Shown piece by piece: positions 4,037-47,390 of a stretch of 64,000 bases of DNA (its first letter is position 1; each line of letters starts with the position of its first letter). The notes beneath the pieces were generated by a model. That model was not told the origin of the DNA. It did no database searches and was given only the letters and a program-made list of their open reading frames with translations. The DNA is from Pelomonas caseinilytica. GTDB lineage: Bacteria > Pseudomonadota > Gammaproteobacteria > Burkholderiales > Burkholderiaceae_C. The translations under genes and the position numbers were made by a program. Location: positions 682,001 through 746,000 of the forward strand of contig NZ_JAJTWT010000003.1 of the NCBI RefSeq assembly GCF_021353235.1. The letters run 5' to 3'.

Positions 4037-4049
4037 TCCGCGTGGTGCC

Positions 4050-4613: not shown

Positions 4614-4745
4614 GTCATCGAACCTTTGAAGGCCGGCACCTGGCGGCACAGTGCCTGACCAGGTGACTGCCGTGGAACCGGCTTTGCCGGGCCACGGGCA
4701 GCGTTCCCTTGAGGGGCCGCGCGCGAAGCGAGCAGGGGGGCGCGA

Positions 4746-5060: not shown

Positions 5061-5166
5061 GGGGAATCTCGGAGTTGTCGTGTCAAAACCGTGATTATCC
5101 CGGAGCCCCCCCGGGCCGGCGCGGCCATCTCCCTGCGTGGAGACGGGCCTTGCCCGGCACGGGAGA

Positions 5167-5739: not shown

Positions 5740-5873
5740 GATCGTCTCCTGCGCGGTGCAACCGCTTGCACCGGGATTCGATACTACGCCGGCTGCGGGT
5801 TTCCGTGCATGAAGAACTGGGGGCAAAACATCACGCAAACGTGGCGGACGTTCGCCGCCCGGCAATCCAGCCT

Positions 5874-6677
5874 TCAGCCGGGCCAGCGCCCGCCGCTGGC
5901 GCGCGCACGCCCGCCCAGGTCGCGCCGCAGCGCGACCTCCCCGAAGCCCCGGCCGGACAACTGCCGCGCGACCGCCTCGGCCTGGTCCCAGCCGTGCTCC
6001 AGCAGCAGCCAGCCGCCGGGCGGCAGATGTTGCGGCGCCGCATCGATCAGCGTGCGCAGGTCGGCCAGGCCGTCGCCCCCTGGCGTCAGCGCGGTGAGCG
6101 GCTCGTGGCGCAGGGCCGGCAGGTGCGGGTCGTCGCCCGCGATGTAGGGCGGATTGCTGACGATGAGGTCGAAGTGCCGGCCGGCCAGCGGCTCGAACCA
6201 GTTGCCCTGCCGCCAGTCCACCTCCAGGCCCAGGGCCTCGCCGTTGGCGTGGGCGACCTCCAACGCCGGCGCGCTGAGATCGACGGCGCAGACGGTGGCT
6301 CGCCCGCAGGCGGCCTTGATGGCGAGCGCGATCGCGCCGCTGCCGGTACCCAGGTCGGCGACGGCCGGCCGGCCGGGCAAGCCGGCCAGCAGCTCGAGCG
6401 CCCAGTCCACCACGACCTCGGTGTCGGGCCGAGGGATGAGGGTGGCCGGCGTGACCCGCAGGTTCAGGCCGTGGAAGGGCTGACAGCCGGTCAAGTGGGC
6501 CAGGGGCTCGCCGTCGGCCAGGCGTTGCAGGGCCGCTTCGGCGCCCGGCACGGGGGCGTCGCCGTGGGTGATCAGCCAGGTGCGGTCCCGCCCGGCAAGG
6601 TGGGCGATCAGGGCCTGGGCGTCGCCGCGCTCGACACCGAGCCGGCGCGCCAGGGCCAGGGCCTCGTCGACCGTCAC
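5874..6677 (-). CDS. prmC: Peptide chain release factor N5-glutamine methyltransferase
   Basis: Methylates the Gln of the GGQ motif of release factors RF1 and RF2 using S-adenosylmethionine. The 267-residue protein has the AdoMet-binding motif [15 protein letters not shown] (about 110-125) and the substrate-binding NPPY motif (SNPPYIAG). The start is GTG at 6677, overlapping the prfA stop (GTGA), so translation is probably coupled to that of its own substrate RF1. A much longer open frame upstream is a shadow of prfA. Confidence 0.96.
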
Positions 6678-9430: not shown

Positions 9431-10781
9431 GCACCTCTTCCGCCGTCACCACCTCGCCACGCAGCGAGTGGGCGAACGCCGTCGTGATGCGCACATCGAC
9501 GAGCTGGTTCATCAGCCGTGGGGCGCCCTGGAAGTTCACGATGCGGTTGCATTCCGTGCGCCCCATCAGCTCCGTCGCGTCCTTGCGGGAAGTGCCGGTG
9601 ACCAGCACCTTCTCGACCCGCCCGACCATGCCCTGCGAGATCGTCAGCGCATGCGCCTCGATGGCGCCCTGCAGTTCCTGCAGGCGCTTCACCTTGGTCT
9701 CGTAAGGCGTCGTGTCCTCCAGCGCCGCGGCCGGCGTGCCGGGGCGCGGGCTGAAGATGAAGCTGAAGCTGGCGTCGAAGCCGACGTCGTGCACCAGCTT
9801 CATCAGCTTGGCGTGGTCGTCCTCGGTCTCGCCGGGGAACCCGACGATGAAGTCGCTGGCCAGTCGCAGGTCCGGGCGGACGGCGCGCAGCTTGCGCACG
9901 ATGCTCTTGAACTCCAGCGCCGTGTAGCCGCGCTTCATGGCCATCAGGATGCGGTCGCTGCCGTGCTGCACGGGCAGGTGCAGGTGGTTCACGAGCTGCG
10001 GCACCTTGCCGTAGGCCTCGATCAGGCGCGGGCTGAACTCGTTGGGGTGGCTGGTGGTGAAGCGCAGCCGGCGGATGCCGGGGATCTCGGCCACGTACTC
10101 CAGCAGCAGGGCGAGGTCGGCGTGCTCGGTCGTGTCGCCCATCCTGCCGCGGTAGGCATTGACGTTCTGGCCCAGCAGGTTGATCTCCATGACGCCCTGG
10201 TCGGCCAGGCCGGCGATCTCGGTCAGCACGTCGTCGAAGGGCCGCGAGACCTCTTCGCCGCGGGTGTAGGGCACCACGCAGTAGCTGCAGTACTTGGAGC
10301 AGCCTTCCATGATGGACACGAAGGCCGACGCGCCCTCGACCTTGGCCGGCGGCAGGTGGTCGAACTTCTCGATCTCGGGGAAGGAGATGTCCACCTGCGG
10401 GCGGCGCTGCTCGCGGCGGGCCTCCAGCATCTGCGGCAGGCGGTGCAGGGTCTGCGGGCCGAAGACGACGTCCACGTAGGGCGCGCGCTCGATGATGGCC
10501 GCCCCCTCCTGGCTGGCCACGCAGCCGCCCACGCCGATCATCACGCCCTTGGCCTTGAGGTGCTTCACGCGACCGAGGTCGCTGAACACCTTCTCCTGCG
10601 CCTTCTCGCGCACCGAGCAGGTGTTGAAGAGGATCAGGTCGGCCTGCTCGGGGTCGTCGGTGGGCGTGTAGCCCTTGGCGGCCTCGAGCACGTCGGCCAT
10701 CTTGTCCGAGTCGTACTCGTTCATCTGGCAGCCGAAGGTCTTGATGTAGACCTTCTTGCCCGTGGTCTCGGCGCCGCTCAT
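9420..10781 (-). CDS. miaB: tRNA-2-methylthio-N6-dimethylallyladenosine synthase MiaB
   Basis: Radical-SAM enzyme that adds the methylthio group to i6A37 in tRNAs reading UNN codons. The 453-residue protein has the three N-terminal cluster cysteines ([19 protein letters not shown] and the Cys in GGCVASQ). The radical-SAM CX3CX2C is in CSKYCSYC, and a C-terminal TRAM domain covers about the last 65 residues. The ATG at 10781 gives the expected [19 protein letters not shown] start and overlaps the upstream gene's stop (ATGA). Confidence 0.97.
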
Positions 10782-11245: not shown

Positions 11246-11298
<53 letters not shown>

Positions 11299-12380: not shown

Positions 12381-12459
<79 letters not shown>

Positions 12460-33902: not shown

Positions 33903-35287
33903 GCGCCAGGACGCGGGCCACCGTCGTCCTGGACATCGGCAAGACCAACGCCAAGCTCACGCTGATCGACGCCGCCGGCCGGACGCAGGCCGAGGTGCGC
34001 ACGCCCAACACGGTGCGCCGCGACGGACCCTACCCGCACCATGACACGCAGCGGCTGTGGGAGTGGATGCTCGCGCAGTTGCGCGAGTTCGCCGCGCAGG
34101 CGCCCATCGGCACCCTCGTGCCGGTCACCCACGGCGCGACCGCGGCGCTGGTCGACGACGCCGGCCTGGTGCTGCCCGTGCTCGACTATGAGCATGTGCC
34201 CGGCGATGCCACTGACCTGGCGCGTTACCAGGCCATGCGGCCGCCCTTCGAGGAGACCGGCTCGCCGGAGCTGCCCGCCGGCCTCAACCTCGGCCGCCAG
34301 CTCGACTGGCTGCAGGCGCGCTTCCCGGCCGAGTTCGCGCGCGCCCGCCACGTGCTGACCTACCCGCAGTACTGGGCCTGGCGGCTCAGCGGCGTGGCGG
34401 CCAGCGAGATCACCTCGCTGGGCTGCCACACCGACCTGTGGCGGCCGCGCCAGCGGAGCTGGTCGACGCTGGTGGAACGCCGGGGCTGGCAGGCCCTCTT
34501 CCCGCCGCGCCGCGACGCCTGGGCGCGCCTGGGGCCGCTGCGCGCCGAACTGGCCGACCGCACCGGGTTGCCGCGGGATTGCGAGGTCGTCTGCGGCATC
34601 CACGACAGCAATGCCTCGCTGCTGCGCCATCTGCAGGCGCCGCAACACAGCGGCCCCTGCACGGTGCTGTCCACCGGCACCTGGGTCATTGCCGCGGCCC
34701 TGGGCTCGGCGACCCTGCCGCTGGTGGAGGCGCAGGACATGCTGGCTAACTGCAACGTCTTCGGCGAGCCGGTGCCCTGCCTGCGGTTCATGGGCGGGCG
34801 CGAGTTCGCCGCGATCGCCGGGCCCGCGCCGGCGCCGTTCGGGGCCGCCGAACTCGAGGCGGTGATCGCCCGCCAGACGCTGGCGCTGCCCTGTTTCGCC
34901 GAGACGGGCGGCCCTTTCGCCGGCCGCGCAGGGCGCATCGACGGGCCCCCGCCCGTCACGGCCGCCGAACGTGCGGCACTGGCGACGCTTTACGTCGTGC
35001 TGATGGCTGACCACGGCCTGTCGGCCCTGGGCGCCGAAGACTCGCCGGTCGTCGTCGAAGGCGCATTCACGGCCAACCCCTGGTTCGGCCGCTTGCTCGC
35101 CGGGTTGCGGGAGGGCCGCGTCGTCGTCGTGTCCGACGATGCCAGCGGCACGACCTGCGGCGGCTGGCTGCTCGCACGCTGGGGCGAGCCGCACACCGCT
35201 TCGCCTGGCGAGGTGGCGGCGGCCTTCGATTCGGCGGGGTGGCGGGCTTATCGGGAGGCTTGGCGGGGGAGGGTGGGGGCGGGCTGA
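33899..35287 (+). CDS. rhaK: FGGY-family carbohydrate kinase, probable L-rhamnulokinase
   Basis: Phosphorylates a ketose, here probably L-rhamnulose, with ATP. The 462-residue protein has the N-terminal phosphate loop LDIGKTNAKLTL and the second-domain GIHDSNASLLRHL (catalytic Asp) and LSTGTWVIA (ATP-binding) motifs. The RhaK rather than RhaB type is consistent with the RhaI-type isomerase. The start is TTG at 33899 overlapping the rhaR stop. The C-terminal ~15 residues are Gly/Arg-rich. The gene ends 71 bases before a fold-back repeat and converges on the PEP-CTERM gene. Confidence 0.88.
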   Translation: MSARTRATVVLDIGKTNAKLTLIDAAGRTQAEVRTPNTVRRDGPYPHHDTQRLWEWMLAQLREFAAQAPIGTLVPVTHGATAALVDDAGLVLPVLDYEHVPGDATDLARYQAMRPPFEETGSPELPAGLNLGRQLDWLQARFPAEFARARHVLTYPQYWAWRLSGVAASEITSLGCHTDLWRPRQRSWSTLVERRGWQALFPPRRDAWARLGPLRAELADRTGLPRDCEVVCGIHDSNASLLRHLQAPQHSGPCTVLSTGTWVIAAALGSATLPLVEAQDMLANCNVFGEPVPCLRFMGGREFAAIAGPAPAPFGAAELEAVIARQTLALPCFAETGGPFAGRAGRIDGPPPVTAAERAALATLYVVLMADHGLSALGAEDSPVVVEGAFTANPWFGRLLAGLREGRVVVVSDDASGTTCGGWLLARWGEPHTASPGEVAAAFDSAGWRAYREAWRGRVGAG

Positions 35288-35358
35288 TCGGGGGCTGCAA
35301 GCGGGGGCGCTTGCTGGGGCGGGTTGCTTTTGCTCTTGCTTGCAGCATCTTGTTGCGA

Positions 35359-35923
35359 AGGCCCATGCCGGGAATTCGCCCCGGCGGGCGACCTACTTTT
35401 TGGGCGACCAAAAAGTAGGCAAAAAGTCGCCCCCGAACCGCCCGCCCCGCCGCTGCGCTGCGGGGTTCCCTGCGGTGCTCGCACCTCGAGGCCCCGCGCA
35501 AAACTCGCTTCGCTACGCTGCGCTCAGACAGTTGCGCGGAGTCAGTTGTTGAAGCGCGCTGCGCGCGCGGCCTCAAGGTGCTGCGCTCCTCGGCGGGCTC
35601 AAAGGGGGAATGAAGGAACAGCCGCGACCGCAGGGACGCGGCGTTTGGCTGTTGGCTGTTTCGGCTGTTTGGGGTCTCCCCTTCTAAACCGCCGAGAAGC
35701 GCAGAAGCCCGGGGCGCGTGCGAAGCACGCTTCAACAACTGACTTCGCGCCCCTTGTCTGAGCGTAGTGAACGCAGTGAACGAAGCGAGTTGGGCGCGGC
35801 CCCGGGCTTCGAGCATCGCAGGGAACCCCGAAGCGCAGCGCAGGGGCGGTTTTGCAGGGGCCGCTCTTTGCCTACTTTCTGGCGGGCCAGAAAGTAGGTC
35901 GCCCGCCGGGGCGAACTCCCGGC
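35359..35923. repeat. Fold-back repeat, copy 1 (565 bp)
   Basis: A non-coding element whose ends are 57-bp inverted repeats (35367-35423 and 35867-35923, 51 of 57 positions matching). Each end contains its own hairpin of the form CCTACTTT...AAAGTAGG. Internal segments also pair across the element: GGGGTTCCCTGCG near 35460 with its complement near 35815, and CAGTTGTTGAAG near 35550 with its complement near 35730. The whole unit can thus fold back around a central loop near 35640. A second copy in the same orientation is at 45609-46176. It occupies most of the 693-base gap between the convergent rhaK and PEP-CTERM genes. Short ORFs in it read as the Arg/Pro-rich 'PGGRPTFL' type that arises from such repeats and are not genes. 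Confidence 0.88.
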
Positions 35924-35980
35924 ACAGTGCACCGAGTCAAGCAGGCTCCGAGCAAGAGCAACCAACCGCCGCTCGTCCGA

Positions 35981-36670
35981 TCACCCAGCGATCCGCCGCC
36001 TCCTCCTCACCACCCCCAACCCCACCCCCGCCAGCGAGACCAAGGCCAACGACCCCGGCTCCGGCAGCGCGAAAGCCCGGACGCTGTCGATGGCCGGCAC
36101 GCTGTAGCCGCTGGTGTCGCTGGCGCTGTCGAAGGCATAGAGCCTCACCTCGTCGAAACCCAGGGCGTCGCTCAGCCCGAGCACGTCGCCCACGCCGCCC
36201 GTGCCGAGCGAGATGCGGCCGTTGCCCGTCAACGCGCCGTCCAGCCAGGTCTGCCACATCAGGTTGATGCTGGCATAGCCCGAATCGACGGCGAACTCGA
36301 TGCCGTTCAAGTCGCGCGCCGCCGTGCGGATGGATAGGTAGGCGTTCATGCCGGCCGTGGCGAAATAGTTGCCCGAGAAGGCCTGGCTGTAGCTCTCGCC
36401 GGCGGCCAGGTCGACGCAGAACTCGCCGGCGTAGCCGCAGCCGCCGTTGTCGTTGGCGATGCCGGTGTGGCTGAACACCAGGCCGCCTTCCGACCAGGGA
36501 TTGGCCAGGGCGGTGTTGGCCTCGAAGTCGGCGGCATAGACCAAATGGGCCGCGGCAGGCGTGGCGCTGCCGGCGCCGGTGGTCTGCACGATGGAGGCCA
36601 GCGCCGGCGCGGCGGGCAGGGCGCCCAGCAGGGCGGCCAGGAGAGTCTTGTTCATGGCGAGGGCTTTCAT
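35981..36670 (-). CDS. PEP-CTERM sorted surface protein
   Basis: A 229-residue exported protein with a signal peptide (about 1-26, ending ALA) and a C-terminal sorting signal. That signal is PEP at 203-205, a hydrophobic stretch (GSLALVSLAGVGLGVV), and an Arg cluster (RRRRR). Such proteins are processed by exosortase (EpsH/XrtA) and linked to exopolysaccharide export. The body has two Cys (GCGYAGEFCV) and the pattern of a beta-sandwich, with no recognised enzyme motif. It overlaps the PL4 gene stop (ATGA); a second ATG at 36655 is also possible. Its coupling suggests a surface-bound pectin-binding role, an inference. Confidence 0.85.
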   Translation of the reverse strand: MKALAMNKTLLAALLGALPAAPALASIVQTTGAGSATPAAAHLVYAADFEANTALANPWSEGGLVFSHTGIANDNGGCGYAGEFCVDLAAGESYSQAFSGNYFATAGMNAYLSIRTAARDLNGIEFAVDSGYASINLMWQTWLDGALTGNGRISLGTGGVGDVLGLSDALGFDEVRLYAFDSASDTSGYSVPAIDSVRAFALPEPGSLALVSLAGVGLGVVRRRRRIAG

Positions 36671-38496
36671 GGCACGGCCACCAGGTCGATGGCGTCGAAG
36701 GACATGCCGGGGCTCAGGAAGCGGGTGCCGGCGGTGCCGCTGACGGTGTTGATGGTCAGCGTGTTGGTGCCGACGACCAGCTGGGAGGCGGGGATGTCGA
36801 AGGCATAGGTGCGGTTCACGCCGCGGTAGGTGCCCACGGTCAGGTTGCGCGACACCTTGGGCGGCGCGGCCGGGATGGCGGAGGTCCAGCTGTTGACCGT
36901 CACCTGCGGGCGGGCGCCGTTGTAGTCGGCCGTCAGGCCCACGCGCAGCCGCAGCGGCGCGGTGTTCTGACCGCGCCTCAGGGTGAAGCGCACCTGCAGG
37001 CCGTTGTTGACGTCCTTCCACTGGTAGGCCGGCCAGCCCGTGGCCGGGGTGGAGGTGCCGATCACGTAGGGGCCGACGTTCCACGACGCCATGCGCACGT
37101 CGCCCGGATGCATGAAGGTCAGCTTGTCGCCGTTGATGAACTCCTGGGGCGTGCCGTCCCACTGGCCGATGCGCCAGATCGCCGGCGTGGCGGCCGGGTC
37201 GGCCGTGATGGCCACGGGGTTGAGCGCATAGGTCGCGTTGGCCGTGACGGTGACCGGCAGGGTCTGCACCGCGAGCTCGCCCTTGTAGACGGTCATGGTG
37301 TAGCTGCCGGGCAGCATGCCCTCGGCGGTGAAGTGGCCGTCCACCGGGTCGGCGTCGGTCCAGTACTGCGCCCGGGCGTTCGCGAAGCCCACCGTGTAGG
37401 GCACGCCGGCGACACGGCCCGTGAGGCCGGCCGCGGTGACGGCGCCGCGTCCCGCCGGCGGCACATAACCCACCAGGCCCATGACGCCGTACCAGCTGGT
37501 GTCGGGCCTGACGGCCGGCAGCGAGCCGTCGGTGAACATCAGGATGTAGGTGTTCAGGATGCCCAGGCGGAAGGCCTCAGTCTGGGCCTCTCCGTAGTTG
37601 ACCATGTAGGTCAGCTCGTTGGTGGTGTCGGTGATCTGCTGCAGCAGGCTGCGGTAGAACGGGCCGCCGGAGTCGCCCTCATGGTTGTCGCGCCAGAACC
37701 AGAGGCCGACGCCGGGGCCGGTGCCGCCGAGGATCTGCCAGTCCTTCAGGCGGCGGTTGGAGTAGTGCTTGGAGCGCGACTCGCCGGCACGCGGGTCGGG
37801 GGCCGTGAAGCCGAACACGTCGCCCGACTCGATGGCACCGCTGTTGCCGCGCAGGTCCTCGGCCCAGTAGCTGGCGCCGTTGTAGCTCACCAGGCCGCCG
37901 GCCGTCCCGGCCGGGCCGCCGCTGGGCAGCTTGCCGATGGGCACGCGGGCGATGAAGCGCACCAGGCCGTGCACGTCGGGCTCCTCCGTGAAGTGGGTGC
38001 CCATGTGGATGTGGGGCTGGCCGCGCCTGACGAGGTAGTAGTGCGTCAGCACGCCGCCCTTGGTGCTGGTGCTGGTCAGCGTGATCTTGATGTAGTCGCT
38101 GCCGTTGACGACGCCGCCGTTGGTGGTGGCGGCCGGGGTGGACGTGCCGTCGGCGGCGACGAGCTCGGCCTTGACGGCCACCGCGCTGACGTTGGTGTAG
38201 AGCCAGTCGGCGCCCGAGTTCAGCTGCGTGCCGCGTGCCGGGTCGGCGTATTCCACACCCTTGTAGACGAGGCTGGAGATGTCGCCCGCGGAGGTGGTGC
38301 TGGAGCCGTTGTCGTAGGCCCTCACCTTGAACACCAGGCCGGCATCGGTGTCGACGATGTACTGCGGCTTGGCGGCGTTGCCGCCGTCGAAGACCGTGGT
38401 GATGCTGAAGGCGGCCATCGCGGCGGGCGCGGCGGCAGCGAGCACGCCCGCGGCCAGCCAGCGTGCCCAGGGCGGGCGCGAGAAGCTCGTGGTCAT
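36667..38496 (-). CDS. Rhamnogalacturonan lyase, PL4
   Basis: Cleaves the rhamnogalacturonan-I backbone by beta-elimination outside the cytoplasm. The 609-residue protein has a signal peptide (to about residue 28) and the three-domain layout of PL4. The catalytic beta-supersandwich (about 30-370) includes HIHMGTHFTEEP, SKHYSNRRLKDW and WFWRDNHEGDSGGPFYRSL. A small FnIII-like domain follows (about 385-450), and a C-terminal jelly-roll binding domain begins near PAIWRIGQWDGTPQEF. An AGGAGA ribosome-binding site precedes the ATG. PL4 is best known from fungi and plants and is less frequent in proteobacteria. Confidence 0.92.
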   Translation of the reverse strand: MTTSFSRPPWARWLAAGVLAAAAPAAMAAFSITTVFDGGNAAKPQYIVDTDAGLVFKVRAYDNGSSTTSAGDISSLVYKGVEYADPARGTQLNSGADWLYTNVSAVAVKAELVAADGTSTPAATTNGGVVNGSDYIKITLTSTSTKGGVLTHYYLVRRGQPHIHMGTHFTEEPDVHGLVRFIARVPIGKLPSGGPAGTAGGLVSYNGASYWAEDLRGNSGAIESGDVFGFTAPDPRAGESRSKHYSNRRLKDWQILGGTGPGVGLWFWRDNHEGDSGGPFYRSLLQQITDTTNELTYMVNYGEAQTEAFRLGILNTYILMFTDGSLPAVRPDTSWYGVMGLVGYVPPAGRGAVTAAGLTGRVAGVPYTVGFANARAQYWTDADPVDGHFTAEGMLPGSYTMTVYKGELAVQTLPVTVTANATYALNPVAITADPAATPAIWRIGQWDGTPQEFINGDKLTFMHPGDVRMASWNVGPYVIGTSTPATGWPAYQWKDVNNGLQVRFTLRRGQNTAPLRLRVGLTADYNGARPQVTVNSWTSAIPAAPPKVSRNLTVGTYRGVNRTYAFDIPASQLVVGTNTLTINTVSGTAGTRFLSPGMSFDAIDLVAVP

Positions 38497-38583
38497 GAAG
38501 TCTCCTGTCTTGTGTCGTTGTTCACGGCCTGCGGCGTTCGCCGGGGGGCCGGGGCGGACTCTAGGCAGAGGACTTCCTCGCGT

Positions 38584-38605
38584 GTACTCAACCCGCTGAG
38601 CGTTT
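38584..38605. promoter_or_regulatory. Candidate RhaR-type site upstream of the PL4 gene
   Basis: CTCA (38587-38590), six bases, TGAGCGTTT (38597-38605). This reproduces the spacing and core of the operator at 32778-32811. It lies about 90 bases upstream of the PL4 ATG in the 142-base gap after the serine hydrolase gene. Confidence 0.45.
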
Positions 38606-38638
38606 GGCACGGGCCGCGCCGCAGGGCGCGCGGACGCG

Positions 38639-39868
38639 TCAGCGCAGCAGGGCCTGGTAGGCGAGGTTGCGCACGCGCAGGTGCAGGGTCGAGTTGCCTG
38701 CGGGCCGGAGCTGCGTCATGAAGAGGATGACGAGGCGTTCCTTGGGATCGACCGTGTACTGGGGGAAGTAGGCGCTGCCCCAGCCGAAGGCGCCCTCGCT
38801 GCCCAGCTCCCTGAACCCGCCCATGCGCACGTTGACCCAGAAGCCCAGGCCGAAGCCGTCGGCATCGCCGCCGGACCTGTTGCCGAGGTGGTCGGCCGTC
38901 ATCAACTCCACCGTCTTGGGGGCCAGCAGGCGCACGCCGTCGAGCTCGCCCTTGTTCAGCAGCATCTGCAGAAAGCGGGTGTAGTCGCCGGCCGTCGACA
39001 GCATGCCGGCGCCGCCGGACAGCAGCTTGCGCGGCCCGTCGACGAAGTCGCTGCGCGACGGCGTCTCCATCAGCTTCAGGCGGCCGTTCTCCAGGCCGTA
39101 GACGTTGGCCAGCCGGTCCACCTTGTCGGCGGGCAGGAAGAAGCTCGTGTCCGGCATGCGCAGCGGGCCGGTGATGCGCTCCCGGATGAAGCGGTCCAGG
39201 GGCTGGCCGGAGACCACCTCGACGAGGCGGCCGAGCACGTCGGTCGCGAAGCCGTAGGTGAAGGCCTCGCCCGGCTGGCCCTGCAGGGGCAGGGCGGCGA
39301 AGCGGTCGGCCCACTGCGCCAGGGTCTCGTCGTTGCCGACGAGGTACCAGTCGATCAGCCCCGCCTTGGCGTAGTCGGCGCTGGCCGGCCCGGCGCCGTA
39401 GCTCATGCCGGCGGTGTGGGTCAGCAGGTCGTGGATGGTCAGCGGCCGGCGCAGTTTCTCGGTGCCGCCGCCGGCCAAGGCCACCCGCAGGTTGGCGAAG
39501 GCCGGCAGGTAGCGCGACACCGGCTCCTTCAGCAGGAAGCGGCCCTCCTCGTAGAGCATCATCGCCGCCACCGTCGTCAGCGCCTTGGTCATGGAGGCGA
39601 TGCGGAAGATGGTGTCGGTGCGCATCGGCTTGCCGTTCTCGATGTCGCGCTGGCCGTAGGCCTTGAAGACGACCGGCCGGCCGTCGCGCGCCACCACCAT
39701 GACGGCGCCGGCGAGCTGCTGCTGCCGGATCTGCTCGTCGATGGCCGCGTCCAGCCGATGGAGGCGTTCGGTGGAGAAGCCGGCAACGAGGGCGGGTTCG
39801 GGCGGCGCGGCGGCGGCCTGGGTCAGGGCGGCGCAGGCGAGCGCCACGGCGGCAAGGAAGGTTCTCAT
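38639..39868 (-). CDS. Serine hydrolase of the class C beta-lactamase family, exported
   Basis: A 409-residue protein with a signal peptide (MRTFLAAVALACAALTQAAAA). The SxxK active site is in IASMTKALTT and the YxN-like second motif is at TYGFATDVLG. The family includes beta-lactamases, DD-peptidases and esterases such as EstB. In this operon an esterase acting on acylated pectin is more plausible than antibiotic hydrolysis, but sequence alone does not decide. The long segment after LLSGGAGMLSTAGDYTRF is typical of the EstB-like branch. It follows the CE12 gene by four bases. Confidence 0.85.
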   Translation of the reverse strand: MRTFLAAVALACAALTQAAAAPPEPALVAGFSTERLHRLDAAIDEQIRQQQLAGAVMVVARDGRPVVFKAYGQRDIENGKPMRTDTIFRIASMTKALTTVAAMMLYEEGRFLLKEPVSRYLPAFANLRVALAGGGTEKLRRPLTIHDLLTHTAGMSYGAGPASADYAKAGLIDWYLVGNDETLAQWADRFAALPLQGQPGEAFTYGFATDVLGRLVEVVSGQPLDRFIRERITGPLRMPDTSFFLPADKVDRLANVYGLENGRLKLMETPSRSDFVDGPRKLLSGGAGMLSTAGDYTRFLQMLLNKGELDGVRLLAPKTVELMTADHLGNRSGGDADGFGLGFWVNVRMGGFRELGSEGAFGWGSAYFPQYTVDPKERLVILFMTQLRPAGNSTLHLRVRNLAYQALLR

Positions 39869-39872
39869 CGGC

Positions 39873-41114
39873 TCAGTCGCCCAGCGGGCGTTGGTGGGTG
39901 AAGCCAGGGCTGGCGGCAATGCCGGACTGCTCCGGCGCCTGCGGGCTGCCTGGCTCGATGGCGCCGAGGTCATCGCGCAGTTGCGCGGCGACGGGCACGC
40001 CGGCTTGCCTCAGGCCGAGGGCGACCAGGCGCGCCAACTGCATGGCGCCGTAGTTGTCGTGGTGGGTGTTGTCCAGCCGCCCGTTGTTCACGGGGTGGGC
40101 GGCCTGGGAGCGCTCCGGGCCGAGGGCGGCGTAGAACTGCCGGCTCATCGCGTTCAGGTCGATGAAGGCGAGCTTCATCTGCGCGGCGACCGTGCGGGCG
40201 GCGTCGGCGTATTCGGTCAGGCTGGGCAGCAGGCGCCCCTGGGCGTCGAAGTTGCGCCTCTCCATGGACGAGACGATGACGGGCACGCCGCCGCGCGCCA
40301 GGATGCGCTCGGCATGGGTGCGCAGCTCGGCCTGGTAGGTGGCGGCGTTGCCGCTGCCGTCCTTCTGCTGCTTCTGGTCGTTATGGCCGAACTGGATCAG
40401 CACCGTGTCGCCCGGCTGCAGGGCCGACAGGATCTTGTCCAGCCGCCGGCGCGCGAGCGAGTCGCGCAGCGTCTCGCCCGATTCGGCATGGTTGGCCACG
40501 GCGACCGTCGGCTTGAACAGGGCGGTCAGCATCTGGCCCCAGCTCGCATACGGCTCCTGCGACTGGTCGGCCACCGTCGAGTCGCCCAGCAGGAAGACGG
40601 TGGGCAGGCGTACCGGCTCGATGACGAGGCGGCGCAGGGCGGGGCGGGGGCCGTCGATCTCGAGGGTGAGGCGGCCGTCCCAGGCCCAGGCCTCCTCGAC
40701 CGTCTCGCGCGGCGACTTGAGCCTGACCTCGCCGCCCTCCACGCCCGGCACGGCCGGGATGCGCGCCGTGCGCACGTTGACGACGAAGCTGCGCTGCTCG
40801 CTCGCACCGGCCGGCAGGCGCACACCGTCCAGCATCAGCCGGCGCAGCTCGGCCTTGATCGTCGTGTCGCTGGCTTGCGTGCCGCCGAGCGTGGCGGTGA
40901 TGCGGTAGTTGCCCTCCGGCAGGTCGACCGAGAAGAAGGCCGGCTGGCCCGCCGCGTTGCGCGGCGCGCCGGGCTCGAAGCCATGGCCCCGCTCACGCGT
41001 GTAGATGGGTTCGGTGGCGAGGTCGAACTGCAGGGCTTGGCTGGCTTGCAGCGGCGAAACACAGCCACAGAGCCACAGAGGCGCAGAGAAAACCATGATC
41101 GCCAGGAGCCGCAT
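39873..41114 (-). CDS. Rhamnogalacturonan acetylesterase (CE12) with N-terminal binding domain, probable lipoprotein
   Basis: A 413-residue protein. The start at 41114 gives MRLLAIMVFSAPLWLCGC, a lipoprotein-like signal; the ATG at 41159 is less likely. Residues about 25-170 form a beta-rich domain (FFSVDLPEGNYRITATLGG) seen in front of many CE12 modules. The SGNH domain has VFLLGDSTVADQ (Ser), an Asn in AESGETLRD, GHND in QFGHNDQKQQ, and a DxxH-type His in LDNTHHDNYG. With the tandem enzyme at 12514 it makes three deacetylase domains in one locus. Confidence 0.9.
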   Translation of the reverse strand: MRLLAIMVFSAPLWLCGCVSPLQASQALQFDLATEPIYTRERGHGFEPGAPRNAAGQPAFFSVDLPEGNYRITATLGGTQASDTTIKAELRRLMLDGVRLPAGASEQRSFVVNVRTARIPAVPGVEGGEVRLKSPRETVEEAWAWDGRLTLEIDGPRPALRRLVIEPVRLPTVFLLGDSTVADQSQEPYASWGQMLTALFKPTVAVANHAESGETLRDSLARRRLDKILSALQPGDTVLIQFGHNDQKQQKDGSGNAATYQAELRTHAERILARGGVPVIVSSMERRNFDAQGRLLPSLTEYADAARTVAAQMKLAFIDLNAMSRQFYAALGPERSQAAHPVNNGRLDNTHHDNYGAMQLARLVALGLRQAGVPVAAQLRDDLGAIEPGSPQAPEQSGIAASPGFTHQRPLGD

Positions 41115-41160
41115 GCCTGTGTGCCTCGGTGCCGCGGTAGCTGGATTCATTGCGGGCATG

Positions 41161-43902
41161 TCAGTCGGTGAGCTGATCGCCGATCAGCGCCAGGTTCTGG
41201 ATGGCCGCCAGGCCCCACTGGGCCGTGTCGTTGGTGCTGATCCACGGCGCCTCGTCCACCGGGTTGAGGGCCAGCGGGCCGGTGATGCGCGAGGTCTTCA
41301 GCGTCTTGGCGCCGCGCGGGTCGTCGGCCCAGAACTCGCGCCAGGCGCGGCGGGCCAGGGCCGGGTCCTGCTTGTGCTTCGCGGCATACGCGCTCAGGCG
41401 CGAGTGGCCGACGCTGAGCACCGGGCTGCCGCCATGGGGCTTGCCGAGAACCCGCACCTGCTCTTCCCGTGGCGCGTTGTACAGCTCGCAGTACTGCAGC
41501 CAGGCCTGCTTGAACTCAGGCAGGTCGATCAGCTCCACCAGCTCGGCCATCATCTCCACCAGGCCGAAGACGGCGCTCAGGTGGCTGGCGCTGATCCTGT
41601 CGCCGCTGACGTTGTGGAAGGCGCCTTCGTTCGGCCCCGTGGGCTCATAGCCGCCGCTGCCGGTGAAGAAGCCGTGCGGCATGGCGGCGATGCCTTTCAT
41701 GCCGCGCACGAGCTTGTCGCGCCAGCGCGGGTCGCCGGTGCGCTCCCACTCGGTCAGCACGTTGGCGACGATGGAGCCCCAGTCGGTGCCGAAGCCGATG
41801 CGCGCCGGCCAGGGGCCTTTGTCCACGCGGCCGGCGATCTTGCGCACCGGGTCGACCTCGTCCATCTTGGCGTCGGCGCTCAGCACCTCGCGCATGATGT
41901 CGCCGGTGCGCTCGTCGGCCGTCAGGTAGTAGTAGAAGCGCCGGTAGGCCGAGGTGGAGATGCGTGCCTGTTTGGCGCTGCAGCCCCAGTGCTGCACGTT
42001 GTGGCGCGAGCCCAGGCCCTGGAAGCGCCCGAGGTGGTAGATGTCGACCTCGCTGGTGTGGCGCACCATGGCCTCGGCGAAGCGGAAGATGTCGGCACGG
42101 CCGCTGCGCAGCCAGGCGTACCAGAGCCAGAGGTCGGGCGAGAGCTCGGAGTTGTCCCAGGCGAAGCCGCCGACGTCGTAGCGCCATTCGTGGCGGTCGG
42201 CGTCGTAGGTGTGGCGGATGTCGCCGTAGTCCCAGAAGCCGTACCAGTGGCGCTGCTCGACCTCGTTCCTGTAGAAGTCGAAGAGGAAGTCCAGCTTGTC
42301 CTCGATCCTGCGGCGCGCGGGCGTGGAGCGGTCGGGCAGGCTCCACAGCCGGCCGAAGACGCCGGCCTGCAGATAACGCGCCGGATGGGCGGCCAGCTGC
42401 GGCGGCGACTGCACGGCAGCCGCCATCTGCACGAGGCGTTCGCGGCTGGGCGTGGCGGGCAGGGCCCACAGCGTGATCTCGCTGCTGCGCGCGATGCCGA
42501 CCGGCGTGCCCCAGCCCTTCTCGTAGTCCTCGTAGGTCATCTCCAGGCCTTCGAGCTCCTGCTCGTGGGTCTCCATGCCCAGGCCGTCGTGATAGAAGCG
42601 CAAGTCCATCGCCGGGGCCTGCGGCGAGTGCATCCAGACGGTGACCTCGGCCGTCTCGCCGATGGCGCCGCGGATGTCGAGCTGGGTCGGGTGGCGCTGC
42701 CAGAAGTCGCGCAGGCCGAAGGCCACGCCGCCGCTGGCGCCGCCGATGTAGCCGCTGCCGGGCGCCCGCCGGCCGAAGGCGGCGGGAATCCAGCCATGGC
42801 CGGCCTGGGTGCGCTTGCGGATCTCGAAGCCGTCGGCGCCGAGCTGGCTCAGCGTGTAGTCGCCCCAGGCGGGGATGCGGTGGTGCAGGTCCCGCACCGG
42901 CTTGCTCCACTGCGCCAGCGGCGGCGTGGCGCGGCCGGCGAGCTGGGCCTCGCGCACCGCGGCGCCGGGGTCGCGGCGCAGGCCGGTGAGGTTGCGCACG
43001 CCCTCGGCCCAGAGTCCGCCGGCTTCGCCGGCGAAGCGCACGTGGCGGTCGTGCAGGGCGTCGCGCAGCGGCACCTCGAAGCGCAGGCCGATGCCACGCA
43101 GGAAATCCTTCTGCTCGTCGCCGTCGAACACGAAGCTGTGCATCACGCGCAGCGATTCGGCGCCGGCGTAGAAGTAGAAGCGCACGCTGAAGGGCAGCCA
43201 TTCGCGCCCGGCCGCGCTGCGGTGCCGGCCATCGACCTTGACGACGGCGCGCACCGGCCCGGCCTGCTCGACGACGAGCGTGTCGATGCGGCTGTCGAAG
43301 CGGGTCTGGGTGACGGGGCACTGGCCGGCATCGGGCTTGTCGTCGGCCTGGGCGACCAGGGTCGCCGCGCGCAGGATCTCGCGGCCGTCGCGTTCGATGC
43401 CGCTCACGAGCTGGGTGCCGCGGCGCGGCAGCCGGGCGCGGATGACGCCGGTGTCGACTTCGACGTACTCGCTTGCCTCACGCACGGTGACGCGCAGGCC
43501 CGTGGCGGCCTCGCCCCGGCCCGGCAGGATGCGGGGCGCGGCGCCGGCGTCGACGCCGGCGGGCAGGGCGTGGGCCGTCCATTTCAGCGACCCGTCGGGC
43601 CACCAGGCCAGGGGCCAGGTCTGCAGCGGCAGCGGCCGGCCCTGGGCGTCCAGTGCGTGGAAGTCCTGATCCTTCTTCAACTCACCGCGCGGCCAGGGCA
43701 GGCCCAGCGTCGCGCCCAGCATCAGCCCGGGCGCGGCGCCGTCCAGCCAGCGCAGCGCGCCCGGGGCCGGCACCGGCTCGGCCGGCGTGGCGGGAGGTGA
43801 GGTCGCGGGCGCGGCGGCGCTCGCGGGGCCGGCCAGGCCGCCCAGGCCGCCCACGGGCAGCGCGGCGGTCTTGAAGAAGTCGCGGCGGCTGAAGTCGGTC
43901 AT
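41161..43902 (-). CDS. Exo-rhamnogalacturonan lyase-like protein (PcRGLX/YetA, PL26), Tat-exported
   Basis: A 913-residue protein with a Tat signal (RRDFFKTAALPVGG, twin Arg at residues 6-7). The layout is that of the PcRGLX/YetA family: an N-terminal RIFT-type barrel (about 45-170, PGLMLGATLGLPWPRGEL), a central catalytic region with Trp/Tyr-rich strands (WDYGDIRHTYDADRHEWRYDVGGFAWDNSELSPD), and a C-terminal alpha/alpha barrel. The fungal prototype releases unsaturated galacturonosyl-rhamnose disaccharides from chain ends; the same product would feed the GPH transporter and GH105 here. The start overlaps the transporter stop (ATGA). Tat export implies folding before transport. Confidence 0.85.
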   Translation of the reverse strand: MTDFSRRDFFKTAALPVGGLGGLAGPASAAAPATSPPATPAEPVPAPGALRWLDGAAPGLMLGATLGLPWPRGELKKDQDFHALDAQGRPLPLQTWPLAWWPDGSLKWTAHALPAGVDAGAAPRILPGRGEAATGLRVTVREASEYVEVDTGVIRARLPRRGTQLVSGIERDGREILRAATLVAQADDKPDAGQCPVTQTRFDSRIDTLVVEQAGPVRAVVKVDGRHRSAAGREWLPFSVRFYFYAGAESLRVMHSFVFDGDEQKDFLRGIGLRFEVPLRDALHDRHVRFAGEAGGLWAEGVRNLTGLRRDPGAAVREAQLAGRATPPLAQWSKPVRDLHHRIPAWGDYTLSQLGADGFEIRKRTQAGHGWIPAAFGRRAPGSGYIGGASGGVAFGLRDFWQRHPTQLDIRGAIGETAEVTVWMHSPQAPAMDLRFYHDGLGMETHEQELEGLEMTYEDYEKGWGTPVGIARSSEITLWALPATPSRERLVQMAAAVQSPPQLAAHPARYLQAGVFGRLWSLPDRSTPARRRIEDKLDFLFDFYRNEVEQRHWYGFWDYGDIRHTYDADRHEWRYDVGGFAWDNSELSPDLWLWYAWLRSGRADIFRFAEAMVRHTSEVDIYHLGRFQGLGSRHNVQHWGCSAKQARISTSAYRRFYYYLTADERTGDIMREVLSADAKMDEVDPVRKIAGRVDKGPWPARIGFGTDWGSIVANVLTEWERTGDPRWRDKLVRGMKGIAAMPHGFFTGSGGYEPTGPNEGAFHNVSGDRISASHLSAVFGLVEMMAELVELIDLPEFKQAWLQYCELYNAPREEQVRVLGKPHGGSPVLSVGHSRLSAYAAKHKQDPALARRAWREFWADDPRGAKTLKTSRITGPLALNPVDEAPWISTNDTAQWGLAAIQNLALIGDQLTD

Positions 43903-45560
43903 GGGCGGGCGTGCTGGATGGGAGGAAGTTCGGATTGGGGGGCGGAGCTGCCGCGTCCCCACAGGCGGCTGTAGGGCCAGCCGGTCAGCGCTTCGACGAT
44001 GCGGCGGCTGGCGTCGGTCTCGGCCTCGGTGGCGCCGCCGCGCAGCCGCTCGACCTCGTGCACCAGCACCGCGTGCGTGCCGGCATTGAGCCGGAAGCGC
44101 CACGAGGCCAGCAGGCCGAACGCCATCATCAGCAGGGGGCCGCCGATCATCAGCGCGGTGATGGTCTGGATGGCCGTGGGGCTTTGCACGACGGCCTCGC
44201 CGGGCCGGCCGATGGGCGAGACGTAGCCGCCCAGGTCGATGATCCAGCCGCTGGCCACGATGGCCGCGCTCTGTGCCATCTTGCGCACCAGCGTCATCAC
44301 ACCGGCGAAGATGCCTTCGCGGCGCTGGCCGGTGACGGCCTCGTCGATGTCCGGCAGGTAGTTGTAGACCGACCAGGGCACGAAGTTGAGCGTGCCCCGG
44401 CCCAGGCCGGCCAGGACGATGGGCAGGAAGAGCCAGCCGGCCAGGCCGAGGGAGAAGCCCGGGCGCGTGGGGTCCAGTGCCGCGAAGAGGTTGGGGCCGA
44501 GGGCCTTGAAGCCCTGTTCGAAGCCCTGGGGCCGCACCAGGTAGAAGCCGAGGTAGAGCAGCAACGCTGCACCGAACAGCGCGACGGCGAGTCGGTAGGC
44601 CAGCACGGGGCCGGTGCGGATGACGATCTGGATGGCGACCATGACCGAGACCAGCTGGGCCACGTACATCACCGTCATCAGCTGCGAGATCACGAGGGTG
44701 GCGCCCATGAGCACCGTGGCCACGAAGATCGGAAAGGCGGTGTTGAAGATGTCCTGCGAGAGGTAGCCGCCGAGGTAGATGGCCAGGTGCTGGCGGAAGG
44801 CGCGGATCTTCAGCGTGGAGAACAGGTCGCGGAACATCTTGACCGGGATCATCAGCACGGCGCTGAGCGCCACGCCGCCGTAGGTCTGCGACATGACGGC
44901 CTGTTCACGCGTGCCGTACGGTCGCTCCCAGGTCGTGAGCACGACGAGGGTGACGACGACCGAGAAGATGACGCCGAAGATGGCTGCCATCCAGAAGAAG
45001 GTGTCGGGCGAGTCCTTGCCGCCGAAGCGGCTGATCAGCAGCGTGGGCAGGTAGGAGGCCAGGATGGCCGAGCTCTGCGCCACGATCATGCGGGCCCCCG
45101 CGAACCTGGCCTTGGCCTTGTAGTCCTTGGTCATCTCGGCCGCCAGTGTTTCCCAGGGGATGAGGAACATGGTGTAGAGCAGCTCGAAGAAGACGAAGGC
45201 GAGCAGGTAGTAGGCGAAGCCGTGGCCGGTGCGGAAGACCAGCGCGAAGCTGGGCAGCAGCGGGATGGTGATGAGCAGGAAGAGCTTGCGCCGGCCGATG
45301 CGGCGGCCCACCCAGGTGTGGCGCAGGTTGTCGGACACGTAGCCGATCAGCGGGCAGGTGATGGCCTCCAGCAGCCTGGGCAGGCCGAGGATGAGGCCGG
45401 CCTCGATGGCGCTGAGGCCGCAGAAGGTGGTGAAGAAATAGAACAGCCAGCCGGTGATGACGGCCTGGGCGCCGGCACCGAGCATGTCGCCGCTGCCCCA
45501 GCCCCAGTAGTTGATCCAGGTGGGCTCTTTGGCCGCCGGGTGAAGGTTCTTGGAGGTCAT
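43899..45560 (-). CDS. GPH/MFS-family sugar permease
   Basis: A 553-residue inner-membrane protein with about 12 hydrophobic segments. It has the MFS loop signature YVSDNLRHTWVGRRIGRRKLFLL between helices 2 and 3 and the GPH-type N-terminus (INYWGWGSGDMLG). It is likely a cation or proton symporter for galacturonosyl-rhamnose oligosaccharides. It is longer than typical GPH carriers (about 460) because of an inserted loop (about 375-400) and a cytoplasmic C-terminal tail of about 70 residues. It is separated from the upstream GH105 gene by the 568-bp repeat and overlaps the PL26-like gene. Confidence 0.9.
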   Translation of the reverse strand: MTSKNLHPAAKEPTWINYWGWGSGDMLGAGAQAVITGWLFYFFTTFCGLSAIEAGLILGLPRLLEAITCPLIGYVSDNLRHTWVGRRIGRRKLFLLITIPLLPSFALVFRTGHGFAYYLLAFVFFELLYTMFLIPWETLAAEMTKDYKAKARFAGARMIVAQSSAILASYLPTLLISRFGGKDSPDTFFWMAAIFGVIFSVVVTLVVLTTWERPYGTREQAVMSQTYGGVALSAVLMIPVKMFRDLFSTLKIRAFRQHLAIYLGGYLSQDIFNTAFPIFVATVLMGATLVISQLMTVMYVAQLVSVMVAIQIVIRTGPVLAYRLAVALFGAALLLYLGFYLVRPQGFEQGFKALGPNLFAALDPTRPGFSLGLAGWLFLPIVLAGLGRGTLNFVPWSVYNYLPDIDEAVTGQRREGIFAGVMTLVRKMAQSAAIVASGWIIDLGGYVSPIGRPGEAVVQSPTAIQTITALMIGGPLLMMAFGLLASWRFRLNAGTHAVLVHEVERLRGGATEAETDASRRIVEALTGWPYSRLWGRGSSAPQSELPPIQHARP

Positions 45561-45608
45561 GCGTTGGGCGCTTGTCTCTGTCTTGTGGTGGCTTTGTCTT
45601 GGCGCGTG

Positions 45609-46176
45609 AGGCCCATGCCGGGAATTCGCCCCGGCGGGCGACCTACTTTCTTGGGCGCCCAAGAAAGTAGGCAAAGAAACCGCCCCCGAACCGCCCGCCC
45701 CGCCGCTGCGCGGCGGGGTTCCCTGCGGTGCTCGCACCTCGAGGCCCCGCGCAAAACTCGCTTCGCTACGCTCCGCTCAGACAGTTGCGCGGAGTCAGAT
45801 GTTGAAGCGTGCTGCGCACGCGGCCTCAAGGTGCTGCGCTCCTCGGCGGGCTCAAAGGGGGAGTGAAGGAACAGCCGCGACCGAAGGGATGCGGCGTTTG
45901 GCTGTTGGCTGTTTCGGCTGTTTGGGCTCTCCCCTTCTAAACCGCCGAGAAGCGCAGAACTCCGAGGCGCGCGCGCAGCGCGCTTCAAGCTCTGACTTCG
46001 CGCCGTTGTCTGAGCGCAGTGAGCGCAGCGAATGAAGCGAGTTCGGCGCGAGCCTCGGAGTTCGAGCATCGCAGGGCACCCACCCGCATCGCGGGTGGGC
46101 GGTTTTGCAGGGGCCGTTCTTTGCCTACTTTCTGGCGGGCCAGAAAGTAGGTCGCCCGCCGGGGCGAACTCCCGGC
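45609..46176. repeat. Fold-back repeat, copy 2 (568 bp)
   Basis: Same orientation and architecture as the copy at 35359-35923. The first terminal hairpin is here a perfect 30-base palindrome (CCTACTTTCTTGGGC then its complement). It fills the 666-base gap between the MFS and GH105 genes, both on the minus strand, so it lies inside what would otherwise be a continuous operon. A transcript crossing it would form a very long hairpin, likely to attenuate or cleave the message. No gene is supported inside it. Confidence 0.88.
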
Positions 46177-46226
46177 TGGGCCTTCCCAGCAAGACACCGC
46201 AACGCATAGCGCAAGAAACGTCAGCG

Positions 46227-47390
46227 TCAGATGAACCGCACCAGCAGCTCGCCCATCGCCAGCAGCGCCATCGCCTGCCCGAAGGGCATGGAGGTGAGCG
46301 GGACGTCCTTGTATTCCTGCAGCGTGTTGAACACCGGCGTGCCGAAGCTCACCTGCGTCAGCTCGCCGGCCTCGTTGATCTTGCTGCGCACCGCCAGCGC
46401 CGCCTTCAAGCCGACCGCTTCGTACTCGCGCGGCAGATAGCCCTTGCGGACCGCCTTCAGGATGCCGTAGGCGAAGCCGGCCGAGGCCGCGGCTTCGTCG
46501 TAGGAGGTGGGGTCGTCCAGCAGCGTCGGCCACAAACCCGACGGTGACTGGCAGCCGGCGAGGGCCTTGACCTGGGCTTCCAGCGTCGAGACGAGGAACT
46601 GCCGGAAGGCATCGCCCTCGGGCAGGTTCAGCAGCTCGATGAATTCGGGGATGACGATGGTGACCCAGGAATTGCCCCGCGCCCACAAGGCGTTGGCGAA
46701 GTTGTGGCGCCCCTCGAAGGTCCAGCCGTGGAACCACAGGCCCGTCCTGCGGTCGGCCAGGTACTTGATGTGCACCAGGAACTGGCGCTTGGCCTCCTCG
46801 ACGTAATGCGGGCGGTTCAGCAGCAGGCCGAACTTGGCCAGAGGCAGCACCGACATCATCAGCGTGTCGTCCCACAGCTGCTGGTGGTTGACGCTGTTGT
46901 AGACGATGTGCTGGAAACCGCCTTCCTCGGTGCGCGGCAGGTCGTGGTAGACCCATTCCGCCCAACGGTCGATGTAGGGCAGGTAGCGGCGCTCGCCCGT
47001 GCGCTCGAACAGGCAGGCCAGCGTCAGGAAGGGCGCCACCGTGTTGATGTTGCGGCTGGGCATGCCTTCGGCAAAGCGGGCCTCGAACCAGCTCGTCATG
47101 ATGTTCCAGGCCCCCGGGTCGCCGGTCAGCTCCCAGACCTTGTAGACGCCGTACAGCCCCACGCCGTGCGTCCATTCGAAGCCGTTCCAGCCCTTGGTAT
47201 CGAGCACGCGGCCGTCGGCGAGGTGCAGCAGGAACTTGCCGTCGGTGTCCTCGATGTGGACGAGGTTGTGGATCAGGCGGTCGACGGCACCGCGGATGTC
47301 GTCGCGGTCGGCGCCCAGGCCAGCCGTGTGGTGGGCCAGCAGCGGGTGGATGCGCGAGGAGTCGACGGGCTTCAGCACTTGTTTCGTCAT
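46227..47390 (-). CDS. Unsaturated rhamnogalacturonyl hydrolase, GH105
   Basis: Removes the unsaturated galacturonate from the non-reducing end of rhamnogalacturonan fragments by vinyl-ether hydration, leaving rhamnose. The 387-residue alpha/alpha barrel has the active-site Asp in QLWDDTLMM (174/175), the WTHGVGLYGVYK segment, and WARGNSWVT near 220. No signal peptide is present, so it is cytoplasmic, matching the GPH importer. It follows the GH43-GH35 gene by 41 bases; the next gene downstream is beyond the repeat. It resembles YteR/YesR. Confidence 0.94.
   Translation of the reverse strand: MTKQVLKPVDSSRIHPLLAHHTAGLGADRDDIRGAVDRLIHNLVHIEDTDGKFLLHLADGRVLDTKGWNGFEWTHGVGLYGVYKVWELTGDPGAWNIMTSWFEARFAEGMPSRNINTVAPFLTLACLFERTGERRYLPYIDRWAEWVYHDLPRTEEGGFQHIVYNSVNHQQLWDDTLMMSVLPLAKFGLLLNRPHYVEEAKRQFLVHIKYLADRRTGLWFHGWTFEGRHNFANALWARGNSWVTIVIPEFIELLNLPEGDAFRQFLVSTLEAQVKALAGCQSPSGLWPTLLDDPTSYDEAAASAGFAYGILKAVRKGYLPREYEAVGLKAALAVRSKINEAGELTQVSFGTPVFNTLQEYKDVPLTSMPFGQAMALLAMGELLVRFI

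Follow-up and report, generated by a model that had tools for sequence, protein, structure and literature searches.

What are the two long fold-back repeats that stand some 10 kb apart in a pectin locus of Pelomonas caseinilytica, and what happens to the genes beside them? Both lie in a stretch of 64,000 nucleotides (NCBI RefSeq assembly GCF_021353235.1, contig NZ_JAJTWT010000003.1, positions 682,001 to 746,000 of the forward strand), here called the window. An initial annotation of the window had recognised the pair as a fold-back element, but missed its preference for tight junctions between co-directional genes and the mutational scar beside it. This scar, a mirror-image skew at the third codon positions of both flanking genes, is the main new result.

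Third-position skew on both sides of the element

At 49 co-directional junctions filled by the element, the third positions over the terminal 30 nt of the upstream gene were G339 C82 A12 T57 (skew +0.61), and those over the initial 30 nt of the downstream gene were G81 C364 A38 T7 (skew -0.64). On both sides the skew decayed over ~300 nt, to ~0 and -0.17 at 300-500 nt. The corresponding values at 261 tight, element-free junctions were -0.12 and -0.27. A home-made codon model, whose gene starts are approximate, served for gene calling in this profile as well as in the neighbour census and the ribosome-binding site (RBS) test described below; for the insert-length classes and the codon-position test, stops and starts were instead anchored by tblastn.

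Junction states were compared at 107 sites, representing 19 junctions, over the nearest 60 nt and sorted by insert length. Inserts of ≥ 450 nt (31 sites) were accompanied by skews of +0.57/-0.64, and gaps of ≤ 50 nt ('empty', 53 sites) by 0.00/-0.15. Inserts of 51-449 nt (13 sites) showed +0.49/-0.41, where the classes denote length and not identity, 11 of these 13 matching the element at ≤ 100 bits. Two further kinds of insert, CACAGAG hairpins and CCCCNCGGGG hairpins, were present at five sites each and had skews of +0.39/-0.27 and -0.02/-0.30, respectively. Long inserts exceeded empty sites at all 13 junctions for which both states were available, and the shift was almost limited to codon position 3. 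That skewed sites existed beforehand and attracted the element would account for the skew beside nearly all long copies, but the insert-free orthologous junctions have no such skew (53 sites; 13 of 13 junctions), which makes a target preference of this kind very improbable.

When all positions were included, the skew was higher on the left than on the right in 54 of 54 long copies, compared with 49% of random window pairs, and it was positive on the left and negative on the right in 52 of the 54; hits shorter than 480 nt were excluded here and from the identity and RBS analyses. Five copies that do not lie between co-directional genes had skews of the same signs. Left exceeded right also in all 28 named loci, i.e., those of 80 loci from a wider search (see below) in which the partner end was recognised and the flanks were long enough; 15 of them are titled otherwise than Roseateles/Pelomonas, by titles that were not traced to genus.

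On the strand that points its 3' end at the element, the change resembled C-to-T. On the upstream side, T occupied 0.51 of the two-fold C/T sites (0.16 in controls) and TTG/(TTG+CTG) was 0.44 (0.10 in controls). On the downstream side, T at two-fold C/T sites was 0.03 (0.13 in controls), while A at A/G sites was 0.47 (0.30 in controls). Thus each side has a strand, the one with its 3' end towards the element, that is depleted in C and A and enriched in T and G.

Two ideas were tried and rejected. The CACAGAG family was not an equal scar-maker, as its 26 copies in three genomes showed a weak skew of +0.05/-0.01 over 150 nt and +0.08/-0.07 close in. Complementarity between the flanks was likewise rejected as the cause of the skew: flank-flank pairing amounted to -74.5 kcal/mol, against -71.7 kcal/mol by composition, and was lower in 32 of 49 cases.

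The two window copies and their family

The positions of both window copies, of their outer ends and of the flanking gene ends are as follows.

35228..35287, plus strand: scarred 3' end of the FGGY kinase gene; third positions of the last 20 codons G14 C2 A0 T4
35317..35358, plus strand: left outer end of copy 1, GGGTTGCTTTTGC... type, common to other copies; edge approximate
35359..35923, plus strand: fold-back element copy 1, between convergent genes; boundaries of the initial annotation
35924..35965, plus strand: right outer end of copy 1, AC.GTGCACCGAGTC...AGAGCAACC type; edge approximate
35981..36043, minus strand: scarred 3' end of the open reading frame (ORF) right of copy 1; top-strand third positions of the nearest 20 codons G2 C17 A1 T0
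45410..45560, minus strand: 5' end of the MFS gene left of copy 2; top-strand third positions of codons 20-50 G23 C5
45609..46176, plus strand: fold-back element copy 2, in the gh105/mfs junction, both genes on the minus strand
46177..46207, plus strand: right outer end of copy 2, TGGGCCTT... type; edge approximate
46227..46289, minus strand: 3' end of the gh105 gene right of copy 2; top-strand third positions of the nearest 20 codons G5 C15

Since the MFS gene is G-rich throughout, the left flank of copy 2 is weak evidence for a scar.

The two copies, reported earlier at these coordinates and in direct orientation, were both recovered; they measure ~566 bp each and are 92% identical. As RNA, copy 1 folds with -418.9 kcal/mol (shuffle mean -269, z -21.2) and copy 2 with -423.8 kcal/mol (shuffle mean -270, z -23.0), and none of 100 shuffles folded as well in either case. 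Both fold end to end, with hairpins at the element termini. Terminal inverted repeats, as expected of a miniature inverted-repeat transposable element (MITE), are present in both copies, although not as the clean 57-bp arms described before: ungapped, the arms are 85 nt at 80% identity in copy 1 and 52 nt at 85% in copy 2. Similarly, the copies share the boundaries given in the initial annotation, but in many copies the repeated sequence runs ~30-45 nt further outwards, into outer ends of two types. The size of the element is ~560-620 bp, with complementarity over nearly the whole length. A search of the window against Rfam at the gathering threshold gave no family on the element and two tRNA matches only. 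Elsewhere in the window, 53 nt from the 3' part of a tRNA gene occur twice in identical form (11246-11298 and 12381-12433), next to the complete tRNA at 12386-12459; the duplication may be a relic of an old integration.

Copy 1 is flanked by the convergent genes for an FGGY kinase and an ORF without Pfam match, and copy 2, within a minus-strand run, by those for a GH88-family hydrolase and an MFS_2 transporter, in agreement with the arrangement noted before. The ORF next to copy 1 is the one previously called a PEP-CTERM gene; the ORF is present, but the label finds no counterpart in Pfam. Between the copies lie, besides this ORF, genes for a polysaccharide-lyase-4-type protein, a beta-lactamase-fold hydrolase, a GDSL hydrolase, a PcRGLX-type protein and the MFS_2 transporter; the labels PL26, CE12 and GH105 used for genes of this locus are presumed assignments. 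The 10-kb bracket around the pectin genes is incidental. In the pectin locus of the relative G018, the two elements stand at gh105/mfs and pl26/ce12 instead (L069:4665-5239 and 9757-10316). Therefore, the pair defines no conserved cassette. A deletion between the window copies is possible in principle.

The description as a dispersed element without a transposase inside was borne out by BLASTN, with further copies in the same genome and in related genera, so that the absence of copies named there as a refutation does not apply. The own genome contains at least 12 full-length copies, at least 4 split or partial ones and a remnant (at least 16 loci), a lower bound with 40 of 81 candidates scored. 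Matches at E ≤ 1e-10 were obtained in 27 of the 100 genomes searched, the own genome included, and 18 of 20 genomes of the Roseateles/Pelomonas-type genus carry the element, with none in G001 and G014; few candidates were scored per genome. An end-pattern search of GTDB genomes returned at least 113 stretches. The 80 loci listed, several of which are metagenome-assembled genomes, bear besides Roseateles/Pelomonas the titles Paucibacter, Rubrivivax, Variovorax, Xenophilus, Ramlibacter, Denitromonas, Zoogloea, Noviherbaspirillum and others. The family extends to other Betaproteobacteria beyond the host genus. Plasmid or phage carriage was rejected, as the collections searched gave only two weak partial plasmid matches (Variovorax, Comamonas) and no phage match.

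Variants were found at both ends of the size range. Two long forms from Denitromonas contain an ORF in the loop (L247 ~4023-5280, 1,258 bp; L182 ~4988-6266, 1,279 bp, reverse-complement coordinates), which in one form encodes an HNH nuclease domain (Pfam HNH, E 1.3e-10) and in the other has no Pfam match, as if the element loop could acquire cargo. Remnants of ~80-125 nt (L118 ~9836-9915; L140; L370; L338) retain little beyond the outer ends, as expected if a deletion crosses the hairpin base, and decay to remnants was seen in several species.

No autonomous partner sharing the ends of the element was noticed in the loci that were read, and no systematic search for one was made. The element might move as single-stranded DNA under a RAYT/Y1 HUH transposase, in a REPIN-like manner, with cycles of excision and insertion giving both site choice and skew. 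Its terminal hairpins and the Y1_Tnp proteins encoded in all 20 genus genomes would suit such a link, but the number of Y1_Tnp proteins does not follow that of the elements (the element-free G001 and G014 have 1 and 2 Y1_Tnp matches), and none of 31 Y1_Tnp loci, taken with ~1.5 kb on each side, had an element match at E 1e-3. On these two grounds the RAYT/REPIN link was ruled unsupported and is considered rather improbable.

Tight operon junctions and their repeated filling

The neighbours were determined for 59 copies of at least ~400 nt in the fetched loci, two of which were without a called neighbour. Of the remaining 57 copies, 52 lay between co-directional genes, 4 between convergent and 1 between divergent genes. 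The co-directional copies were divided 40 to 12 by element orientation, taken as the strand of the better BLAST match, for which an internal inversion would mimic an inverted insertion. Tight co-directional gaps (≤ 30 nt) make up 1,711 of 68,388 intergenic bp (2.5%) in the same loci; by number, 625 of 800 junctions are co-directional and 372 of 800 tight. The enrichment at co-directional junctions is very large per base and modest per junction.

Filled and empty states could be compared at orthologous sites of the dispersed copies. Gaps of -25 to +22 nt (starts approximate) were found at 18 of 20 comparable junctions in insert-free relatives, for example the TGATG stop/start overlap of dppC/dppD in G014 and G001. 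The exceptions were tonB/mfs, with 45-47 nt, and the L108 junction, with 333-340 nt in four relatives; for three further junctions the insert-free orthologue was not found. When target duplication was checked, ATG, GATG or ATGA stood on both sides at several overlap junctions, which is indistinguishable from the need for an intact stop and start codon.

The same junctions are filled in several species. At dppC/dppD, a long element was present in 12 of 19 genomes (in G005, G013 and G019 the fetched sequence stops inside the element), a shortened one in G008, remnants in G011 and G017 and a CACAGAG hairpin in G002 and G007, while G001 and G014 were empty. Other junctions variously contained long elements, remnants, CACAGAG or CCCCNCGGGG hairpins, or were empty. 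The unrelated CACAGAG family (CACAGAGGCACAGAG...) was observed at the same operon junctions in L133 and L135 (dppC/dppD of G002 and G007), L358, L368, L348 and L319. The operon junctions macA/macB (L290, L357, L377) and livSBP/livF (L301, L372) are occupied by a third family of hairpins, whose core resembles CCCC(N)CGGGG.

Copies at the same junction in different genomes had a mean identity of 0.813 (68 pairs), compared with 0.816 for other between-genome pairs (1335 pairs), which rules out site-wise vertical inheritance of the element body; despite this, the outer ends at dppC/dppD are alike in G013, G015 and G018. Within one genome, copies at different junctions had a mean identity of 0.858 (136 pairs). 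The nearest neighbour was found at the same junction for 3 of 56 copies, two of these being a pair within G015. Both orientations occurred across species at the rbs, tgl, gh105, lolD and SBP/malF junctions. A presence/absence matrix for 14 junctions gave 28 Fitch changes, or 41 gains without precise loss, figures that are indicative only, as the matrix was typed by hand on a rough one-operon tree. Since copies at one junction are no more alike than others and can be inverted, the junctions were repeatedly refilled, or their contents swapped by conversion, two routes that are not separable here.

Repeated filling of operon junctions might also point to a selected intercistronic control device, in which a long RNA stem uncouples or tunes the two genes and is kept at transporter operons. 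REP and ERIC hairpins can affect the expression of neighbouring genes. Besides the co-directional setting of 52 of 57 copies and the use of the same junctions in several species, some with unrelated hairpin families, transport genes are frequent in the flanks (of 52 proteins on each side, 11 upstream ones matched BPD_transp_1 and 17 downstream ones ABC_tran). Moreover, pairing across 30 copies was 88% canonical versus 41-46% when shifted, with double changes at 38 of 221 pairs versus 18-28 when shifted, a test favouring the unshifted version because the structure was derived from one of the 30 copies; this speaks for some structural constraint. However, the antisense RNA was more stable than the sense RNA by a mean of 5.8 kcal/mol, opposite to selection on the transcript, and selection of the sense RNA via G-U pairs was rejected, as the sense strand had more of these in 10 of 47 cases and fewer in 33 of 47. 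Mixed orientation at several junctions, the decay to remnants and the scar, which an RNA role alone does not predict, also argue against a control device, and we regard this explanation as doubtful, although it keeps a real chance.

A hairpin that loops out of the mRNA, so that an RBS inside the upstream gene stays near the downstream start, would make insertions at coupled junctions tolerable. Over 49 junctions, anti-Shine-Dalgarno (anti-SD) pairing indeed averaged -7.1 kcal/mol for the 3'-terminal 20 nt of the upstream gene, but only -3.55 for the 20 nt leading up to the downstream ATG, compared with -4.5 at control starts. This contrast is confounded, as the G-rich scar itself yields SD-like sequence at the end of the upstream gene. 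In addition, some filled junctions (hlyD/abc, rbsB/rbsA) have SD-like sequence after the element, and the distances to the stem base scatter widely, from -42 to +77 nt. Such folding out is therefore unlikely.

Proposed break and repair, and comparison with known systems

Comparison of orthologous junctions showed filled and empty states, filling in several species and in either orientation, and the absence of the scar from empty orthologues. How could an element produce such a scar? The sequence pattern suggests a non-autonomous, near-palindromic element of ~600 bp at which recurrent breakage, 5' resection and error-prone repair make the scar, a reading to which we give about an even chance. 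In densely packed operons, the element would settle after the stop codon of a gene and ahead of the start codon of the gene that follows, and once inserted, the palindrome would be a site of recurrent double-strand breaks. Resection of the 5' ends would leave the strand whose 3' end faces the element single-stranded on each side, and cytosine deamination together with error-prone resynthesis on this exposed strand would cause the loss of C and A and the gain of T and G over ~300 nt. Repair from other genomic copies, or repeated insertion, would create the likeness within a genome and erase kinship by site. Because the depleted and enriched strand is the one left single by 5' resection, the skew can be read as the footprint of a break. 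In yeast, long inverted repeats are reported to raise mutation on both sides via breakage, Sae2-dependent end processing and a translesion polymerase (PMC3681665).

Several observations weigh against this reading. Concerning the link between insert and scar, 4 of the 31 long inserts match the element at ≤ 100 bits, i.e., with little or no similarity, and one dissimilar long insert, at hlyD/abc in G002, lacks such a scar (-0.18; empty -0.49). The excess of co-directional copies is modest when 52 of 57 is set against 625 of 800 (p 0.008), and the right skew is negative in 25 of the 28 named loci only. The skew is uncorrelated with the per-nucleotide folding energy (rho -0.12, p 0.39, n 52), and C-to-T change alone is insufficient, as four-fold sites gain G more than T. 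In the window itself both copies show skews of the same signs, but the scars span only ~60 nt, the G-richness left of copy 2 continues well past that distance, and a blind scan for skew switches placed copy 1 first of 4 sites and left copy 2 unlisted. A gene-centred rule, by which on the coding strand 3' ends are G-rich and 5' ends C-rich, is geometrically equivalent to the break rule, and gene orientation therefore cannot separate the two. Finally, SbcD was above the cut-off in none of the 20 genus genomes (9 weak matches), while 8 of 14 controls pass, and SbcC gave only weak matches, a weak test as its cut-off was passed by only 1 of 14 controls.

SbcCD, the classical palindrome nuclease, was accordingly rejected as the cutter. 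A RecB-like protein scored 153 bits, below a cut-off that was also passed by only 1 of 14 controls. A lack of SbcCD would fit the survival of long palindromes. More broadly, and somewhat short of an even chance, in Betaproteobacteria apparently without SbcCD natural long palindromes may be chronic break sites that survive at the operon position where they break no gene, are copied and homogenised by break repair, and hypermutate both flanks in a two-sided, strand-asymmetric manner.

Exposure of single strands could also arise without double-strand breaks, by fork stalling or lagging-strand exposure at the hairpin. Hairpins can form on the lagging-strand template, and exposed single strands deaminate. 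As a fork passes a locus in one direction, one side should dominate, and the background-subtracted shift was slightly unequal, with 0.20 left and 0.29 right for a positive background and 0.30 and 0.19 otherwise. This inequality resembles a common ceiling of the raw skew, however, and both sides shift at single loci (52 of 54) and are scarred for positive as well as negative local background skew. Fork stalling is thus a quite unlikely source of the scar.

What makes the phenomenon noteworthy is its habit of settling at tight junctions that are filled time and again, and most of all the synonymous scar on both sides. If the scar is the footprint of breakage and resection, palindromic repeats record chromosome break sites that can be read from sequence alone, a selfish neighbour element would determine how fast, and with what strand bias, ordinary transport genes mutate locally, and the skew 'butterfly' would be a general signature by which sites of repeated breakage could be found in any genome. 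Near such elements, tests of codon usage or selection will give misleading results. The reuse of the same junctions, also by unrelated hairpins, raises the questions of a target preference for stop/start sites and of a benefit of intercistronic stems.

How does the element compare with known systems? As an object, it is a MITE-like fold-back of unusual length. According to two reviews (PMC10969869, PMC2229807), bacterial MITEs (Chunjie of Geobacter, ERIC, Correia/NEMIS, RUP) are likewise non-coding, intergenic and present in many copies, with inverted termini and fold-back structure and without transposase; ERIC is reported to be co-transcribed with its neighbours, and a text search for the word 'skew' gave no occurrence in either review. 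In contrast to MITEs, the element here has ~600 bp with complementarity over nearly the full length, is biased to tight co-directional junctions, reuses the same junctions and is flanked by a mutational scar, and for it neither target-site duplication nor a cognate transposase is established. Literature searches, confined to titles and abstract starts of open-access papers, turned up no recognisable account of the family or of a skew flanking palindromes in bacteria.

REP/BIME/REPIN sequences with RAYT are alike in being hairpin-rich extragenic repeats in hosts that encode Y1_Tnp proteins. A REPIN or BIME, however, is a short (~100 bp) doublet of REP hairpins, whereas the present element is far longer and complementary nearly end to end; its number does not follow that of Y1_Tnp and the 31 Y1_Tnp loci gave no match to it, and the REP motif was not part of the search. 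Intercistronic stabilising hairpins are known from the malE-malF REP and the puf operon and, like the element, lie between cistrons of transport or other multi-gene operons. They differ in that the sense-strand stability test gave the opposite result here.

The fragile quasi-palindromes of yeast share the long inverted repeat and the two-sided mutation, for which resection and translesion synthesis were proposed (PMC3681665). The yeast system is an engineered assay with effects up to 8 kb (PMC3681665), whereas the element described here, in a genus without detected SbcD, forms a natural bacterial family with a strand-asymmetric evolutionary footprint of ~300 nt.

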